A stretch of DNA of 43,078 bases. Source: Candidatus Nezhaarchaeota archaeon. GTDB lineage: Archaea; Thermoproteota; Methanomethylicia; Nezhaarchaeales; B40-G2. The notes under the pieces are model-generated. The model was not told where the DNA came from. It was given only the letters and a program-made list of their open reading frames with translations, and ran no database searches. Below are positions 1 through 41,749 of this stretch, one piece after another. The stretch's first letter is position 1. Every line of letters starts with the position of its first letter. Where the stretch lies: assembly GCA_026413605.1 (NCBI GenBank), contig JAOAKM010000006.1, positions 1 to 43,078 of the forward strand. Direction: 5' to 3'. Both the position numbers and the translations under genes were made by a program.

Positions 1-800
1 ATCTTGAAGAGGGAGCTCATCGTCTCCGCTTGCATCCTCCTAATTAGCTCGCTAAGGCTCAATATCCTCTCAACTATCTCTGTAGGTAGCTCGTGGCTCC
101 TTAGGGCTATAGCGCTCCTAGCGATAATCACGGCCTGGTCTCCGTTAGACTCCAAGGCTCTAGCTGCTAGCCTGTAGTCAAGGCACTCAACTAGGCTTAC
201 CCCGGCTTTCTCTGAGAGCCTGGGGTTTTGAATAATAGTCCTGAGCTGTCTAACGATTAAGAAGTACAGCCTATTTAAGTCGTCGTCCCTCTTAATTACG
301 CTCTCAGCTAAGTCCTCGTCTCTATCCTTGAGGGCAGTGATAGCGTCTGCGTGCATTTGAAGCGCTAAGATGTGGGCTCTCCTGAGCAGCGTCTTTATGG
401 GTATGGCCAAGGGTGAGAGGAGGCATTGAATGGTTATCTCGTTCGGCTTCTCTTCTATAATCTCAGTCCCGATCAAGACTGTTAGCGCATTCTTAACCCT
501 CTCTCTTTGATCTAGGGTTATTCTCCTAGGAGCCTTTATGTGTATGATGTCTACTCCCATCAAGTACTTGCTGAGGATCTCCCTATTGACGACGTCGTCT
601 AGCTCAATTACCGATACATTCGGCTTCTCCGCTTCTTCAGGCACCCCGGCCTTAATGAATAGCGCTCCGTCGCTTTCCTCTATTAAGGCCACCGTCGCCC
701 CTTCCCTTAACCCCATCCTGGAAATCCATTCTTTAGGTATAGAGACAAGGTAAGAGCCACTCTTAGTCTTCTGAAGCTTCCTATACTCCACATGGCCCAT
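1..800 (-). CDS. AbrB/SpoVT-PhoU domain regulator (C-terminus beyond window)
   Basis: The gene starts at ATG 798-800 and stays open to the window edge (about 266 codons), so its C-terminus is missing. Residues about 5-50 form an AbrB/SpoVT swapped-hairpin DNA-binding domain (SGSYLVSIPKEW, then a MGLREGATV turn). The following helical sequence contains the PhoU-like pattern RAHILALQMHADAITAL with a second acidic helix (DRDEDLAESVIKRDDDLNR). It has the same architecture as the gene at 37558-38631, which sits divergent to the pst operon, so it is a paralogue. Such proteins are probable phosphate- or metal-responsive transcription regulators; the effector is inferred, not seen. It lies 6 nt after the DUF99 stop, consistent with cotranscription with DUF99 and orc1/cdc6. 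Confidence 0.85.
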   Translation of the reverse strand, partial: MGHVEYRKLQKTKSGSYLVSIPKEWISRMGLREGATVALIEESDGALFIKAGVPEEAEKPNVSVIELDDVVNREILSKYLMGVDIIHIKAPRRITLDQRERVKNALTVLIGTEIIEEKPNEITIQCLLSPLAIPIKTLLRRAHILALQMHADAITALKDRDEDLAESVIKRDDDLNRLYFLIVRQLRTIIQNPRLSEKAGVSLVECLDYRLAARALESNGDQAVIIARSAIALRSHELPTEIVERILSLSELIRRMQAETMSSLFK

Positions 801-7206: not shown

Positions 7207-7492
7207 TTTGCATTTTTATAATTGAAAGGCACCCCCTAAAGGACAGGCGCACGCTATCAATTTCGTGAGAAGGTAGGAGGGGAGGCTCCTAGGCACTACA
7301 AGACTTTTACCTCACAAGTTTATTAGAACAAGTTTGAGCTCCCGGCCATCGCGGCTAAGGCGCGTGGTGCTAAGCGCAGGGGGCGGAATGATGACGACGA
7401 TTTTTTCAGAAGCCCATGCCGCAACGCTCTTAAGAGAAGCTTAAGTTAAAGCGCGCTCTTCAAAACCGGCTCGCGCGATGAATGGGAGAAAG
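7207..7492. other. Intergenic spacer
   Basis: No gene was seen. It holds a TATA-like element near 7211-7223 that faces the small minus-strand ORF; the SOD promoter lies at its right end. Confidence 0.35.
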
Positions 7493-7501
7493 TGATAAAA
7501 G
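7493..7501 (+). promoter_or_regulatory. TATA box of superoxide dismutase
   Basis: TGATAAAAG lies 30 nt before ATG 7531. It falls inside the N-terminal extension that the longest open frame would imply, so it helps reject an upstream start at 7492. Confidence 0.45.
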
Positions 7502-7530
7502 CAAACGGAAGCATATGGAGGTGGTGCATC

Positions 7531-8145
7531 ATGGAAGGGCAGAAGTTCTACGTTCTACCTCAGCTGCCCTATAGCTACAAGGATTTAGAGCCCTACATGT
7601 CCGAGGAGCAGCTAAGGGTGCACCATAGCAAGCACCACTTAGCCTATGTAAACGGAGCTAACGCAATACTTCAGAAAATGGACAATGCTAGAAAGGAGAA
7701 TGTTGATTTAGACGTAAAGTCCATGCTGAAAGAGCTGTCTTTTAACATAGGCGGGCACCTTCTCCACTCGCTTTTCTGGGGGAACCTAGCTCCGCCAGGT
7801 AGGGGTGGAGAAAAACCCGGCGGGGTCTTAGGCGACTCCATAGCCAAGGAGTTTAGAAGCTTTGAGCGCTTCCAGAGAGAGTTTTCACAGGCGGCTGTGA
7901 GTGTTGAAGGCTCTGGATGGGCAGCCTTAACCCTCTGCAAGCAAACGGGCAGGCTGATAATAATGCAGGTTGAGAAGCATAACGTGAATGTGTACCCCAT
8001 GTTTCGAATCCTCATGGTACTAGATGTCTTTGAGCATGCCTACTACATAGACTATAAAAACGAGAGAGCAAAGTTCGTTGAGGCCTTCTGGAAGATAGTA
8101 AACTGGGATGCTGTAAACAAGAGGCTAGAAGAAGCACTAAAATAG
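7531..8145 (+). CDS. sod: Superoxide dismutase [Fe/Mn]
   Basis: This enzyme converts superoxide to oxygen and peroxide in the cytoplasm. The 204-residue protein has all four metal ligands: His31 in RVHHSKHH, His79 in [10 protein letters not shown], and Asp165 and His169 in [13 protein letters not shown]. Length and motifs fit archaeal cambialistic or Fe-type enzymes; the metal cannot be told from sequence alone. The ATG at 7531 is chosen because GGAGGTG precedes it by 7 nt and a TATA box sits 30 nt upstream. The frame is open further upstream to 7492, but that part overlaps the promoter. A heavily decayed paralogue lies at 41135-41749, so this is the only functional copy in the window. Confidence 0.95.
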
Positions 8146-32544: not shown

Positions 32545-33131
32545 CTAGTATATCAGTAGCAGTATGGGATAGGAACCGTACCTTACACTATCCTCCACCT
32601 TTTCTTAATCATACATACCGCCATTAATGAGCAGCCGAGGAGAGAACGAGCAAATTTTTTAGTGAACGCTAGGCTTTCATGGTGGTCAATCGGGGGCCCT
32701 CCCAATGAAGTAGCTGAGCCCTATATAGGGGATGCGTAGCAAATTAGTCTTGGCAGGCAAGCAACGATCATTACTTCCGCGAGACCCCTTAATACACTTC
32801 ACAATTATGGTGTAATATGTAAAAGGCAGAGGATGAGGGGTTCTAAGGGATCTATAATCCTTTATTTGCGCCGACCCTGCCTATTCAGTTTAGGCTTTAT
32901 CATAGGGGAGGAGCCACTAGGGATGATAAGTCGGCGTTTTTAAGGCGACTTTGTAACATTTAAAAAATGCCAATACGGCTGCAGAATCGTGTAGGAATGA
33001 ACCGGCTACGTCTTTAAGGGCCGTTGGGCTTCAACGACTTCTGTTTAAGAGAGTAGGAGAAGTCGACGTGTTGGCTTAGAAGAAGGCCCGAGGGAGATTA
33101 GACGTAGGTAAGTCTATTGTTGCTTCAACCC
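32545..33131. other. Gene-poor interval before the pst operon
   Basis: No gene is supported. An inverted sequence GGCGTTTTTAAGGCGAC near 32933 and several T-runs were noticed, but nothing with a clear function. Confidence 0.35.
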
Positions 33132-33779
33132 CTACCTGAGGAACTCCCTCCTCCCCGTTAACATGTAGATTATCGACTCATATAGATATATCGCGTGGTC
33201 GGCTATCCTCTCAAGGTAGCGGATTATAAGCACGCTCGAGGTGACTATCTTGCTCTTAGCATCTTTCTCCTCTATTATCTTGCTGAGGAAGTCGAGGTAT
33301 AGCTTATCGACAGCTTTTTCCATCTCAGACACCTTGCTTGCGGCCTCTATCTTCGCGCTTCTTAGGGCCTCTACGCTCTCCTTAACCATGCTCATTACCT
33401 TGTTGCTCATGTCGGCGACGTATGAACGTATCCACTCCTCACCCTCCTTCAGCCCGCCTAGGCGCTTATTGACGTAAGATATGTCTAAGGCGTATCGTCC
33501 GAATCGGACTAGGTCGTAGGATATCTTCATGTACGCCTTTATTATGCGTAGGTCTGAAGCTACTGGTTGGAACCTTGCTATTGCCTCGAAGGCCCCGTCT
33601 TCAACCTGGTCTGCCAGCAGAATCAGTGTGCTAGACGCCTCTCTAATTTTACTGTACGAGTCGACGCCGTGTAAGCACTCATCGATAGCCATGGAGACAG
33701 ACTGGTGGGCTAGGTCACTCATTCTGTGGATTATCGTTGAGAGCCCTCGTAGCCACGTATCTATCATCCTACTCATCAT
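33132..33779 (-). CDS. phoU: Phosphate transport regulator PhoU
   Basis: PhoU is a cytoplasmic helical protein that dampens phosphate uptake and signals phosphate status through the Pst transporter. The 215-residue protein has two PhoU repeats: LSTIIHRMSDLAHQSVSMAI with RFQPVASDLRIIKAYMKISYDL, and a second with SSVLIIRYLERIADHAIYLYES. These carry the metal-binding E/D-x-R-x-x-D patterns. It is the last gene of the pst operon, 6 nt after pstB. Confidence 0.95.
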   Translation of the reverse strand: MMSRMIDTWLRGLSTIIHRMSDLAHQSVSMAIDECLHGVDSYSKIREASSTLILLADQVEDGAFEAIARFQPVASDLRIIKAYMKISYDLVRFGRYALDISYVNKRLGGLKEGEEWIRSYVADMSNKVMSMVKESVEALRSAKIEAASKVSEMEKAVDKLYLDFLSKIIEEKDAKSKIVTSSVLIIRYLERIADHAIYLYESIIYMLTGRREFLR

Positions 33780-33785
33780 TATCCC

Positions 33786-34547
33786 TCAGCCGAACTTCCC
33801 GGTGATGTACTTCTCAGTTAGCTCGTTCCTCGGGTTTTCGAAGACAACCTTAGTAGGCCCGTGCTCTATAAGCTCTCCTAAGTAGAAGAAGGCTACGTAG
33901 TCAGATATCCTGGCGGCCTGCTGTATATTGTGGGTTACAATGATCACCGTGTAGCTCTCCACCAGCTTCCTGATTAAAGCCTCTATCTTCGCCGCAGATA
34001 TCGGGTCTAGGGATGACGTGGGCTCGTCCATTAATAGGACTTCCGGCTCAACGGCCAGCGCACGGGCTATGCAAAGTCTCTGCTGCTGTCCGCCTGAAAG
34101 GCTTGCTCCGGACTTATGTAGGTCGTCTTTCACCTCATCCCATAACCCGGCGAGCTCTAAGCTCCTCTTAACGATCGAGTCAAGGGACCTCCTGTTCTTC
34201 ACGCCGTTTAGCTTGGGCCCCATGGCGACGTTGTCATAGATCGACAGCATCGGGAACGGGTTCGGCTTCTGAAAAACCATTCCGATCTTCCTCCTTATCT
34301 GAACCGGGTCGACGCCTCCGTCATAAATATTCACTCCGTTGAAGATGACCTTTCCATGGACACGGGCCCCTGGGACGAGCTCGTGCATTCTGTTCAGACA
34401 GCGGATGAAGGTCGTCTTCCCGCATCCCGAGGGGCCCATGATGGCCGTCACTGCCCTGTCCTTTATCTTCATGTCTACGTCCTTTAAGACCTGCTTATGG
34501 CCGAACCAGGCGTTTAACCTCTCAACCTCAATCTTATAGGTCGACAT
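33786..34547 (-). CDS. pstB: Phosphate ABC transporter ATPase PstB
   Basis: This is the ATPase that drives phosphate import. The 253-residue ABC protein has Walker [10 protein letters not shown] (38-46), Q-loop [11 protein letters not shown] typical of PstB, signature LSGGQQQR (149-156), Walker [13 protein letters not shown] and the switch His in IIVTHN. PstB-type length and Q-loop distinguish it from other ABC ATPases. It begins 2 nt after pstA. Confidence 0.97.
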
Positions 34548-34549
34548 AC

Positions 34550-35380
34550 CTAGTACCTCTCCCTCATTAACACCCTAACTGCTATATTTATCCCCAGTAT
34601 TATTATAATAAGTACTAGAGCCGACCCCCATGCTAAGGCCACCCAGTTCTCGAAGGGTGAGTTAGCGAAGATGAAGACGTTTAGCGAGAGGTTAGCTGCT
34701 GGCCTATCTAATCCGGCGAACCACCACCTCCAGTAGCCCATCGTAACGAGGACTGGTGCAGACTCCCCGGCTATCCTAGCGATTGCAAGCAGTATTCCAG
34801 TTGCCACGCCTCTCTTCGCACCGCGTAGTACGACATGTATTATTGTCCTCCACCTCGGCATCCCGAGGGCGATCGCCGCCTCCCTTATAGTTGCTGGCAC
34901 TAGCTTAAGGTTTTCTTCAGTCGTCATAGTCACTATTGGTATCATTATTATCGCTAAGGCGAACGATGCCGCTAGGACGGAGAAGCCTATCGTGAGGACT
35001 ATGAGCACGTAGCTGAAGACCCCGATTACTATCGACGGGATTCCGTTCAACACCTCATTGAAGAACCTCACTACCGCTGCGAACTTGCTCTCGCTATACT
35101 CACTTAGGAAGATGCCTGACAGCAGCCCTATGGGGATGCCGATGAGAGAGGCTAGGCCGATGGTTATAAGAGTGCCCTGTATAACGTTCGCGATACCCCC
35201 TATCTCTTCACCTACTGTGGGCGTTGGCCTTATGAAGAAGTCTAAGCTAATTACCGATAAGCCCCTCTTAAACACCTCGAAGATCACGCTAAATAAAGGG
35301 ATCAGTGCTGCTACGAGAGATAGATAGATTAAGAACCGCGCAGTGTAGTCCTTTAATACCCTTAGCTTACGATGATCCAT
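34550..35380 (-). CDS. pstA: Phosphate ABC transporter permease PstA
   Basis: This 276-residue membrane protein has six helices. Near the N-terminus is a PstA-type periplasmic region ([23 protein letters not shown]), and the coupling motif [22 protein letters not shown], which contacts PstB, lies near residue 165. It forms the membrane channel together with PstC. It sits 3 nt after pstC. Confidence 0.95.
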
Positions 35381-35383
35381 CCC

Positions 35384-36361
35384 TCACTCCCTCGCTATAC
35401 CCCTGACTAGTTTAAGCGTTCGCCAGACGATCAATCGGGCGAGGATGTTCACTATCAAGGTCACGAGGAGCAGGGCTAGCGCAACGTTTATCAAGGCGCT
35501 GACGTAAAGGTCGTACGTCGCTTCGAGAAGTTCGTTCGCGATTATGGCCCCCATGGTGTACCATGCGTCAAAGAGCGAGGATGGCCAAAGCTGAAACTTG
35601 TTCCCAATGACCATCGTCACCGCCATCGTCTCTCCGATAGCACGCCCCAGCCCTAGCATCAAAGCCCCTACTATTCCGGAGCGCGCGTAGCTAAGCACTA
35701 TCTTGGTCGTCTCCCACTTAGTAGCGCCGAGCGCTATCATTGCCTCTCTCTGAGACCTAGGAACAGTTAAGAATAAGTCTCTCATGACGGCGGAGGTTAT
35801 CGGAATAACCATTATCGCCAAAACTATCCCAGCTGTAAGGACACCGCCGCCATAGAAAGACCCTGAGAAGAGCGGTATGAAGCCGAGGAGCCTCTGTAAG
35901 TGCGTGTACACGTGATCACGTAGAAAAGGTATCAGCGTATATATCCCCCAGAGCCCATAGACGACGCTTGGAACGGCAGCTAGCAGCTCCACCAGGAAGG
36001 AGACAGCAAAACTGAGCTTTCTAGGCATGTATTCAGAGAGCGCTAAGCCTATCCCAAGGCTTACCGGCGCACCTATAAGGAGCGCGATAGCCGAAGTGGC
36101 GAGGGTTCCAAGCACTAGCGGTAGAGCCCCGAAGACCTGAGATATAGCGGGGTCCCACTCAGTGCCTAGGAAGAAGCCTGGCCCAAAGGTCTGTATGGAG
36201 AGCCACGACCCCTTGATCAGGTAGTAAACCATCATGCCTAAGAGCAAGAGGACGCTGGAGGCCGTCATGATGCATAAGAACTTGAAGGCCTCGTCGCCCC
36301 TTACTCGCCGATTTGAAAGAAGAAACAGCTTGAGCTTTAGGCTAAAAAAAGGGTTTTTCAA
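35384..36361 (-). CDS. pstC: Phosphate ABC transporter permease PstC
   Basis: This 325-residue permease has about six to seven helices and the PstC pattern FLVELLAAVPSVVYGLWG, followed by the coupling loop REAMIALGATKWETTKIVL and GLGRAIGETMAVTMVIGN. It partners PstA in the phosphate channel. The gene starts 14 nt after pstS ends. Confidence 0.95.
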   Translation of the reverse strand: MKNPFFSLKLKLFLLSNRRVRGDEAFKFLCIMTASSVLLLLGMMVYYLIKGSWLSIQTFGPGFFLGTEWDPAISQVFGALPLVLGTLATSAIALLIGAPVSLGIGLALSEYMPRKLSFAVSFLVELLAAVPSVVYGLWGIYTLIPFLRDHVYTHLQRLLGFIPLFSGSFYGGGVLTAGIVLAIMVIPITSAVMRDLFLTVPRSQREAMIALGATKWETTKIVLSYARSGIVGALMLGLGRAIGETMAVTMVIGNKFQLWPSSLFDAWYTMGAIIANELLEATYDLYVSALINVALALLLVTLIVNILARLIVWRTLKLVRGIARE

Positions 36362-36375
36362 GGGATCTCCCTAGC

Positions 36376-37494
36376 CTATCTTCTGTACAGCTGTTTACCA
36401 TTGTACGTAATCAAGCGTATAGTGTCTTCGTTTATGTTGACAACGTTCTGCGGCAGCGGTACATAGTATAGCCCCGGCGCATATCCCTGCCCGTCGTGTA
36501 TAATCCACCATAGGAACTCCACCAAGGCTCTCGCCGCGGCCTCGTCCATGTTCGGCAGGACGCTCAGCTCCCTATACACCAAGAGGTAGGAGAAGCTAGT
36601 TATCGGGTAAGCCCCCCTGGCCCGCGTGTTATTGAATAGGCTGTCTACCATCGAGACCTTCGACCAATCTCCATCACCCCTCGGTAGCGTAAGACCAGCG
36701 TACTCTGCAGCCTTAGCGAATGACGTGATGCTCGGCTCAACGAACTCTCCGGCAGCATTTTTAACGTATCCATAAGCTAGGTTGTTCTTCTTCGCGTAGG
36801 TGAACTCCACGTAGCCTATGGAGTACGGTGTTTGCATGACGAGGGTGGCGACCCCCTCATTCCCCTTACCTCCAATGCCCACTGGCCACTTTACCGATGT
36901 CCCCTTCCCGACCCGGCTCCTCCACTCTGGGCTAATGTTTGATAGGTAACTAGTCCAGATGAACGTCGTCCCGCTTCCATCGGACCTGTGCACTACGACT
37001 ATCTCATTATCTGGTAGGTTAACGCCTGGGTTTATCTCAATGAGCCTAGGGTCATTCCACTTCTTGATCTTTCCTAGGTAGATATCCGCTAGGACTTCCC
37101 CCGTGAACCTTAGCCCGCTCTGCATACCGGGGATATTGTAGATGGGGACAACTCCGCCTATGGTTATGGGTATGTGCAAGGTATTGGGCGCATTTTTGGC
37201 TTGGGCTTCTGTGAGCGGTACGTCGGAGGCTGCGAAATGTACAGTCTTTTCAATATGCTGCTTAATTCCTCCTCCGCTCCCGATGGGCTGGTAGTTAATC
37301 TTGACGTTAGGCCTGAGCTTATGGTACTCAGCGGCCCACTTATCTATTAGCGGGAACGGGAACGTTGCGCCGGCGCCGTTCAATGATACCTCCTGCGCCT
37401 CCTGCGCCTCTGGCATATATTGGTAAGCGAAGATGCTCGCTGCTACTACTGTAACCATTACTGCTAGGATAGCTATTTTGTAGACAGTCTTCAT
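36376..37494 (-). CDS. pstS: Phosphate-binding lipoprotein-like PstS
   Basis: This 372-residue extracellular phosphate-binding protein starts with an uncleaved anchor or signal helix (about residues 7-25, KIAILAVMVTVVAASIFAY). The binding domain shows the PstS landmarks: NGAGATFPFPLIDKWAAEY, YQPIGSGGGIKQH, ASDVPLT, VVHRSDGSGTTFIWTSYLS (phosphate-contact Ser/Asp/Arg) and GKGNEGVA. No lipobox Cys was seen, so it is probably anchored by the N-terminal helix. It is the first gene of the operon and faces the AbrB-PhoU regulator. Confidence 0.95.
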   Translation of the reverse strand: MKTVYKIAILAVMVTVVAASIFAYQYMPEAQEAQEVSLNGAGATFPFPLIDKWAAEYHKLRPNVKINYQPIGSGGGIKQHIEKTVHFAASDVPLTEAQAKNAPNTLHIPITIGGVVPIYNIPGMQSGLRFTGEVLADIYLGKIKKWNDPRLIEINPGVNLPDNEIVVVHRSDGSGTTFIWTSYLSNISPEWRSRVGKGTSVKWPVGIGGKGNEGVATLVMQTPYSIGYVEFTYAKKNNLAYGYVKNAAGEFVEPSITSFAKAAEYAGLTLPRGDGDWSKVSMVDSLFNNTRARGAYPITSFSYLLVYRELSVLPNMDEAAARALVEFLWWIIHDGQGYAPGLYYVPLPQNVVNINEDTIRLITYNGKQLYRR

Positions 37495-37522
37495 AACTAA
37501 CCCCGCTCATTTAGAGGGCAGA

Positions 37523-37534
37523 AAAATTTATATG
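37523..37534. promoter_or_regulatory. Shared AT-rich promoter of the pst operon and AbrB-PhoU gene
   Basis: The 63-bp space between the divergent starts (37494 and 37558) holds one TATA-like tract, AAAAATTTATAT. It is about 24 nt from the plus-strand start and 29 nt from the minus-strand start, so it could serve both directions or leave each promoter blocked when the regulator binds. Confidence 0.6.
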
Positions 37535-37557
37535 ACTTACTCACATAAACAATATAG

Positions 37558-38631
37558 ATGAAAGCTAACTATATAGGTAGAAAGGAGGAACTTCATCCAT
37601 TAGAGGAGGATATTAGGAGAATCCAGTTCACTGGGAGGGCTACCTATATAGTTTCGCTTCCAAAGAAATGGGTAGCTTCGATGGGGCTAAAGGCAGGGAG
37701 CCGAGTGATGATATCGCAAAGAGGCCACTCATTAATCTTAACCCCCGTGGAGATGGCTAAACCCTTACCGCAGCCCGTTGAGGTCACGGTGACGATCTCA
37801 AGCCAAAACGACCCCGACATGATAGTTAGGGAGATAATCTCACTATATTTACTAGGGTACCGCATCATTAACGTGCGGGCTGGGGATGGACACATAAGTG
37901 CTATGCAGAGAAACGCGATAAGAGAACTAGTGAGGAGGAAGCTAGTCGGCACGGAAATTATATCAGAGAGCCCGGGAGAAATTAAGCTTCAGACCCTAAT
38001 AAGCTACCCAGAACTGTCCGTGGAAAGCGCTTTAAGACGCGTGTGTTTGATCGCCGCCTCGATGCACGACTATGCCACACAGGCCTTAATAGGCTTCGAC
38101 AAGAGGCTTGCGAAGGAAGTCATCGATTTAGACGACGAAGTTGACCGCTTCAGCATATACATCATACGGCAGCTGAAGGCTGCGGTGCAGAATGAAAGGA
38201 TCTTACACGATATCGGGCTCTCCCAACCAAGAGACTGCCTAGGCTACAGGGTAATTGTGAAATTCGTGGAAAGGGTAGCTGACCACGCCGCAAAAATAGC
38301 TGAGAACGTCCTCTCTCTAGAGGAGAGACTGAGTGAAGAGGTCCTTCAGAAGATCTTGGACATGAGCAACTTCGCCAGAAACTCTTTCGACGAAGCCGTG
38401 AAGTCGCTGTTTAGAAAAGACTACATGCTGGCTGAGAGCGTAGTTTCTAGGGCGAGGGGGATAATAGACATTGAGAAGGAGGCAGTGAAGGAGATACTGT
38501 CCAAGACGAAGCAGATCGACGCCTTCAGCGTGAGGATGATAGTGGAGAGCATACGGAGGATCGCAGAATACGCGAGCGACATCGCGGAGGTGGTCTTAAA
38601 CCTAAACGTTAACAGAATGGTTGCGTCGTGA
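37558..38631 (+). CDS. AbrB/SpoVT-PhoU domain phosphate regulator
   Basis: This 357-residue protein joins a DNA-binding AbrB/SpoVT domain (residues about 15-60: TGRATYIVSLPKKWVASMGL with AGSRVMISQRGHSLILTP) to two PhoU-type helical repeats (RVCLIAASMHDYATQALIG; RVIVKFVERVADHAAKIAEN; VRMIVESIRRIAEYASDIAE). It is divergent from the pst operon across 63 bp, strongly suggesting that it represses or activates pst and itself in response to phosphate. That regulatory role is inference from domains and position. ATG 37558 lies close to a TATA box. It is a paralogue of the protein at 1-800. Confidence 0.92.
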   Translation: MKANYIGRKEELHPLEEDIRRIQFTGRATYIVSLPKKWVASMGLKAGSRVMISQRGHSLILTPVEMAKPLPQPVEVTVTISSQNDPDMIVREIISLYLLGYRIINVRAGDGHISAMQRNAIRELVRRKLVGTEIISESPGEIKLQTLISYPELSVESALRRVCLIAASMHDYATQALIGFDKRLAKEVIDLDDEVDRFSIYIIRQLKAAVQNERILHDIGLSQPRDCLGYRVIVKFVERVADHAAKIAENVLSLEERLSEEVLQKILDMSNFARNSFDEAVKSLFRKDYMLAESVVSRARGIIDIEKEAVKEILSKTKQIDAFSVRMIVESIRRIAEYASDIAEVVLNLNVNRMVAS

Positions 38632-41134: not shown

Positions 41135-41749
41135 GTGGAACCCGCTAGACCGTACGTCCCACCCCCCAGCTGCCCTATGGCTATGGGGATTTAGCACCGT
41201 ACACGCCTGAGGAACAGCTTTGTATACGCCACACTTTTTATCACCAAGCCTATGTAAATGGCGCAAACGCAATATTGAGAGGCCGGATAGTGTCCGTAAA
41301 GAGAACGTGGAGGTAGACGTGAAAGCTATGGAACGTAGGCGGACATATATTACGCTCACTGTTCTGGAGGAACCTACTCCGCCTGGCAGAGGCGGTAAAC
41401 CGAGCGAGGGGCTGTTAAGCCTCATTGAGAGGGAGTTCGGGAGCTTTGAGAAGTTTAAGAGGGAGTTTTTCTCAGGCAGCTACTACTAGTGTAGAGGGCT
41501 CTGGATGTGTAGCCCTAACAGTGTGTAGCAGACTGATCGCTTAATGATAATGCAGGTAAAAAAGCACAACTTCAACCTCTGCCCGTCCTCCTCAATAATA
41601 GCGGTCCTAGGTATTTGAGCGCGCCCCTACTACATAACTACATAGACTACTATAACTACAAGAATAGAAGGGCGGGTTTCGTAGAAGCGTTTTAGAAGAT
41701 AGCTAACTAGGACGAAGCGAACAGAAGGCTCGTGGAAGCGCTGAAATAG
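41135..41749 (+). pseudogene. Decayed second superoxide dismutase
   Basis: The whole length of a superoxide dismutase can be traced against the intact gene at 7531. From GTG 41135 it reads as a shortened N-terminus, [35 protein letters not shown], then in another frame PTPPGRGGKPSEGL and EREFGSFEKFKREF, then VEGSGCVALTVC, QVKKHNFNLCP, and a corrupted [13 protein letters not shown] region that ends in VEALK-like sequence and a TAG at 41747. There are several frameshifts and stop codons and loss of metal-binding residues. It is 25 nt after rubredoxin, so it once belonged to this redox cluster. Confidence 0.92.

Follow-up and report, generated by a model that had tools for sequence, protein, structure and literature searches.

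How is phosphate scarcity turned into gene control in archaea that have no two-component systems? The question is raised by a 43,078-nucleotide stretch of contig JAOAKM010000006.1 from a Candidatus Nezhaarchaeota archaeon (GCA_026413605.1), hereafter the window, in which a gene for a PhoU protein with a predicted DNA-binding domain faces a phosphate transporter operon.

The pst operon and its divergent putative regulator

Four genes on the minus strand, pstS (36376..37494; TIGR00975, 372.8 bits, cut-off 205), pstC (35384..36361; TIGR02138, 297.6 bits, cut-off 196.45), pstA (34550..35380; TIGR00974, 253.9 bits, cut-off 193.45) and pstB (33786..34547; TIGR00972, 395.2 bits, cut-off 343.2), each scored above the NCBIfam equivalog cut-off and make up a complete Pst transporter operon. 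The last gene of the operon encodes a stand-alone PhoU with two repeats (33132..33779, minus strand; PF01895, 88.6 bits), which fell narrowly under the TIGR02135 cut-off (121 versus 130.25 bits). The regulator gene (37558..38631, plus strand; 357 aa) is divergent from pstS across positions 37495-37557, a gap of exactly 63 bp. The initial annotation, made from the letters alone, had described this gene order and an AbrB domain fused to two PhoU repeats, and both descriptions were borne out by family matches above cut-off and by the coordinates.

We assigned the regulator's domains from Pfam matches and an AlphaFold model with a mean pLDDT of 87.7. Residues 23-65 (37624..37752, plus strand) form an AbrB/SpoVT-like, predicted DNA-binding domain that matched PF04014 (AbrB/MazE) with 33.9 bits (cut-off 24.7) and stayed under the cut-off of the narrower TIGR01439 (21 versus 28.3 bits). 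It is conserved in 46 relatives, in which its TGxSTYIVSLPKxW motif is nearly invariant. The C-terminal part, residues 155-350 (38020..38607, plus strand), matched PF01895 in two stretches (85.6 bits, cut-off 23.5) and was modelled as a full six-helix double PhoU, with a Z score of 27.2 to Pseudomonas aeruginosa PhoU (4q25). In a check of the metal motifs, where the acidic ER-x-DH and D-x-x-x-D are expected in both repeats, the first repeat retained DDEVDR and VERVADH, nearly invariant in the 46 relatives. The second is degenerate: RRIAEY (RR-x-EY) replaces the usual ER-x-DH, with D341 and E344 retained, so sensing may differ from that of classical PhoU.

A third domain, of predicted Alba-like fold, sits between the AbrB and PhoU parts. 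In the model, residues 75-147 (37780..37998, plus strand) fold as beta-alpha-beta-alpha-beta-beta, for the most part at a pLDDT above 90, and their conservation nearly equals that of the AbrB part. Foldseek placed Alba and IF3-C proteins among the best matches. In VIA-align the first 15 matches, with Z scores from 9.7 to 8.6, were all Alba/Sso10b proteins, the best of them aligning over 74 residues at 2.3 Å (Z 9.7); IF3-C, SirA/TusA, Smr and SepF share the same general arrangement at slightly lower Z scores. A profile search with residues 66-158 of the window's protein gave no Pfam family match, the Alba family was absent from the matches of the corresponding segments of 26 relatives, and a sequence comparison with the PDB returned no credible match. 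We therefore call the domain only 'Alba-like': its predicted model shares the fold of the Alba chromatin proteins, and its sequence does not place it in their family. As many kinds of protein use this fold, it does no more than suggest that the domain binds nucleic acids.

The initial annotation had also supposed that PhoR-PhoB is absent, and the genome agrees. Its assembly (1.4 Mb, 147 contigs, 95.6% complete) held no match to the response-regulator family PF00072, a search in which 12 of 14 controls were positive, and its single HATPase match is probably topoisomerase VI. The same genome has five AbrB-PhoU genes or fragments, three of them at contig ends. One is in the window itself (3-800, minus strand), a sequence-divergent second gene cut by the contig edge and lacking a CTATATAG box (see below); no such box was found at the promoters of the paralogues in this genome. 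Elsewhere in the window, a short ORF at 41220-41489 (plus strand) resembles a piece of Fe/Mn superoxide dismutase and is probably a gene remnant; a full gene for this enzyme lies at 7492-8145.

Of 300 genomes from the phylum, 288 yielded relatives in a protein search; the genomes compared were mostly MAGs. Linkage was scored by tblastn with the window's Pst proteins in 80 loci, consisting of 79 fetched neighbourhoods and the window. Pst genes were divergent from the regulator in 46, co-linear in three and absent within 3 kb in 31; as these loci are the best-ranked search matches, the linked share is not that of all AbrB-PhoU genes. In 40 of the 46 divergent loci (window counted) the pst match was at most 500 bp away. 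Recurrence of the divergent order in 46 of 80 loci is more than chance. In a maximum-likelihood tree the window fell within a 16-member clade (SH-aLRT 98) whose every member is pst-divergent, and the paralogues from its own genome formed long branches elsewhere. An unlinked distribution in relatives, named in the initial annotation as evidence against its phosphate switch, is thus not what the window's branch of the family displays; linkage there is strong. Two seemingly identical inverted AbrB-PhoU genes on one contig of another genome (L089 and L090; G222 contig C8) are probably a palindromic assembly artefact.

Promoter boxes in the window and in relatives

Two boxes flank the start of the regulator gene. 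Box C (37569..37576), the perfect palindrome CTATATAG, is conserved in relatives; it falls within codons 4-7 of the regulator gene, at a distance of 82 bp from the start of pstS. Box B (37550..37557), CAATATAG, which reads CTATATTG on the pst strand, is separated from box C by 11 bp and precedes the start of pstS by 63 bp; the last base of box B directly precedes the regulator's start codon. Read towards pstS, the pair is CTATATAG-N11-CTATATTG (37576-37550). Its spacing is conserved: in a promoter alignment, ATATAG-N11-CTATATAG kept the spacing of 11 in 16 of 21 near relatives, and the exact pattern occurs in the window's own genome at one site, this promoter. A central AT-rich element, AATTTATATGACT (37525..37537), is from its sequence and the relatives' alignment a likely TATA box, perhaps for both strands. 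Further left, CTCATTTAGAG (37506..37516) is a degenerate box, weak in the window and TATATAG in several relatives. The shared 63-bp promoter of the initial annotation was therefore right as to the gap and too narrow as to the promoter, since the conserved boxes extend past it into the regulator's first codons. Because box C is outside the gap, a binding test limited to the 63 bp would lose one of the two boxes.

We then counted CTATATAG across the phylum. In 56 of the 80 AbrB-PhoU genes it occurred at most 170 bp before the conserved start, where shuffled sequences gave about one. These loci are not independent, and the signal was intact after thinning to 65% identity (32 of 48 non-redundant genes, with about 0.4 expected). 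Among all 256 palindromic 8-mers the next commonest was TATATATA, at 10 of the 48 loci. In a GTDB-named sample that partly overlaps the first, 66 of 80 genes had the box, including those of Nitrosopumilus, Nitrosotalea, Nitrososphaera and Hadarchaeum. The exact sequence was missing in nine of the 46 pst-divergent loci, and all 25 of those left after thinning had it with at most one mismatch. Distances between box and pst start were taken from single-start loci, as choosing among several possible start codons would bias the statistics; 17 of the 23 such loci gave 76-98 bp, and in several of the outliers the exact match sits in another box of the array.

The background in the AbrB-PhoU loci was 46 copies per 1.005 Mb, and 19 of the 873 other promoters in these loci had the box, many of them belonging to pstS paralogues or DUF47-Pit genes. 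These figures bear on the idea that CTATATAG is a TATA-like core promoter element and not an operator. The box is indeed AT-rich and close to transcript starts, but it is scarce at the other promoters, a separate TATA-like element coexists with it at a fixed distance, and TATATATA is far rarer at AbrB-PhoU loci. We consider this explanation highly improbable. As a finder of regulon members in the window's genome, a single CTATATAG was useless alone, most of its 28 copies lying within genes. One copy, at 32721, is downstream of the stand-alone phoU with no evident gene behind it.

What ties CTATATAG to AbrB-PhoU is association in sequence, and the box could instead be the site of another transcription factor for phosphate genes, with AbrB-PhoU as one of its targets and acting elsewhere, for example on the transporter. 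Against this, the box accompanies AbrB-PhoU even away from pst (17 of 31 unlinked genes had it) and where no pstB was found; of 20 genomes chosen mainly because their regulator is unlinked, 11 had no PstB match at E 1e-60. The palindrome, furthermore, is consistent with binding by a dimeric AbrB domain. A second factor thus appears unlikely to us, and we go on with AbrB-PhoU as the candidate reader of the box.

The box at further phosphate genes

Of eight pst operons located apart from the regulator, six had an exact CTATATAG shortly before the first gene, and in most of the six it was the sole copy nearby. In Nitrosopumilus-like loci, separate pstS genes and a DUF47-Pit pair have boxes; in one Nitrosopumilaceae-like genome a double CTATATAG (L250:3130-3155) precedes a DUF47-Pit pair adjoining the AbrB-PhoU/pst region. 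Pit genes have an upstream box in some genomes; none was found at the PHO4 gene of the window's own genome (L257), nor at three of four Pit genes from its order.

When 300 genomes were scanned for ATATAG-N11-CTATATAG, 36 sites came up, compared with 12 for the reversed control. Fourteen of the 36 were at AbrB-PhoU or pst, and several were before unknown genes or within repeats. In Sulfolobaceae-like genomes, sites were found 59-87 bp before genes for phosphoesterases, MFS proteins and a PHO4/PiT carrier, the MFS proteins being closest to the phosphate:H+ symporter model, under its cut-off. Repeats of the form CTATATAG-N11-CTATAT, or near variants, precede these genes, and near-matches were seen before further symporters, a phosphodiesterase and a solute-binding protein in genomes of this kind. 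That unrelated families are joined here only by phosphate is the strongest reason to call CTATATAG a Pho box.

Three further observations came from these searches. A membrane protein of 237 aa that belongs to no known family is encoded in two Sulfolobaceae-like genomes (L294:717-1427, minus strand, and L295); it has CTATATAG repeats 78-95 bp upstream and is a candidate member of a Pho regulon. An intergenic pair in the window's own genome, CTATATAG-N10-TTATATAG (L157:3625; C51:3625), lies 23 bp before a 276-aa ORF that has no family match and looks CARF-like by eye. An identical 25-base ATATAG-N11-CTATATAG, spacer included, stands at two far places in one genome (L286 and L298; G044) and is probably a repeat.

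A proposed one-component switch and its known counterparts

From these data we infer binding by the regulator, phosphate sensing, activation of pst and autorepression. In the proposed mechanism, the AbrB dimer would bind the palindromic CTATATAG boxes, two of which, directly repeated at a spacing of roughly two helical turns, would be common to the pst operon and the regulator gene. Pst would be activated from boxes upstream of its likely TATA, and the regulator would lower its own level, the same boxes covering its expected transcript start and first codons. The double PhoU may read phosphate status through a ligand, metal-phosphate or contact with PstB and so alter DNA binding. The Alba-like domain could stiffen the dimer or add a second DNA or protein contact, and the separate PhoU encoded last in the operon would exert the classical restraint on the transporter. 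We put at about 70% the probability that the protein is a one-component Pho regulator binding CTATATAG boxes, with control of pst, probably activating, exerted upstream of the TATA and with repression of its own gene. Weighing against this reading are the pst-divergent loci that lack the exact box, the degenerate second PhoU repeat and the boxless, long-branched paralogues in the window's genome.

For the sign of control the basis is weak, because TATA and transcript starts were guessed from AT-rich sequence. Activation of pst with autorepression is favoured since at phosphate genes the boxes precede the likely TATA, the usual place for an archaeal activator, and at the regulator's own gene they cover the likely start. 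The same protein and operator could also work as a repressor, with the boxes bound and both pst and the regulator off in phosphate-replete cells, and released at low phosphate. Bacterial PhoU is a negative regulator; in the window, the boxes cover the probable start of the regulator's own transcript and the degenerate left box is close to the pstS start, all of which would suit a repressor. Less compatible with it is the position of the boxes at several kinds of target, around 60-90 bp before the start codon and upstream of the likely TATA. Likewise, the pho-boxes of Halobacterium salinarum, motifs of a PhoU regulator, are reported in PMC6560208 (citing Furtwangler 2010) to be needed for the induction of pst at low phosphate, that is, for upregulation. 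We regard repression of pst as possible but doubtful, and retain the activating regulator as the preferred reading.

The one-component phosphate switch proposed in the initial annotation gains from the pst linkage, the lack of PhoR-PhoB and a conserved box both in cis and in trans; as a kind, such a protein beside pst is not new. Extended further, CTATATAG repeats would serve throughout the phylum as a Pho box recognised by AbrB - Alba-like - PhoU proteins. Together they would define an ancient one-component regulon of pst, PiT, phosphate:H+ symporters and phosphoesterases common to ammonia oxidisers, Bathyarchaeota, Methanomethylicota and Sulfolobales-like archaea, and the Alba-like domain would supply a second contact, to nucleic acid or within an oligomer. 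For this wider proposal we see the chances as evenly balanced. If true, the proposal would give ammonia-oxidising archaea a Pho regulon, relevant to phosphorus and nitrogen cycling in ocean and soil. In one such archaeon, Ca. Nitrosopelagicus brevis, a phoU by Pst/Pit showed the strongest differentiation of any gene between ocean basins (PMC9239043). With a defined operator and a named regulator, it is directly testable with soluble protein.

Bacteria control pst and phosphatases through PhoR-PhoB-PhoU and a box of direct repeats that precedes the promoter. That system is a two-component phosphorelay in which PhoU is an adaptor protein of its own, whereas in the window PhoU is fused to a predicted DNA-binding domain. 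Closer counterparts are archaeal. Halobacterium pst2 is flanked by the regulator genes phoU and prp1 (PMC1779511); the likeness to the window lies in regulator genes beside pst and in the presence of promoter boxes. Thermococcus kodakarensis TK2245, a SpoVT/AbrB protein with a PhoU domain like the window's regulator, was found on isolated chromosomes, and no targets are named for it in PMC7325993. In Haloferax volcanii, PhoU2 (HVO_2374) adjoins the pst1 operon and is a predicted transcription regulator of phosphate uptake, and a transposon insertion in it leads to hypochlorite tolerance, according to the excerpted text of PMC6267482. The window's regulator has the HVO_2374-type architecture, an N-terminal predicted DNA-binding domain with PhoU, and adjoins pst; on that excerpt the likeness is one of architecture and synteny. 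PhoU2 differs in being euryarchaeal, and the same excerpt mentions neither an operator nor a middle domain. Among the matches listed in the literature we searched, in which subscription papers were thinly covered, we found no archaeal CTATATAG box, phylum-wide reach of one, or Alba-like domain in such a regulator. Relative to that literature, a DNA-binding PhoU beside pst is already known, and what is new is the phylum-wide CTATATAG box together with the Alba-like domain.
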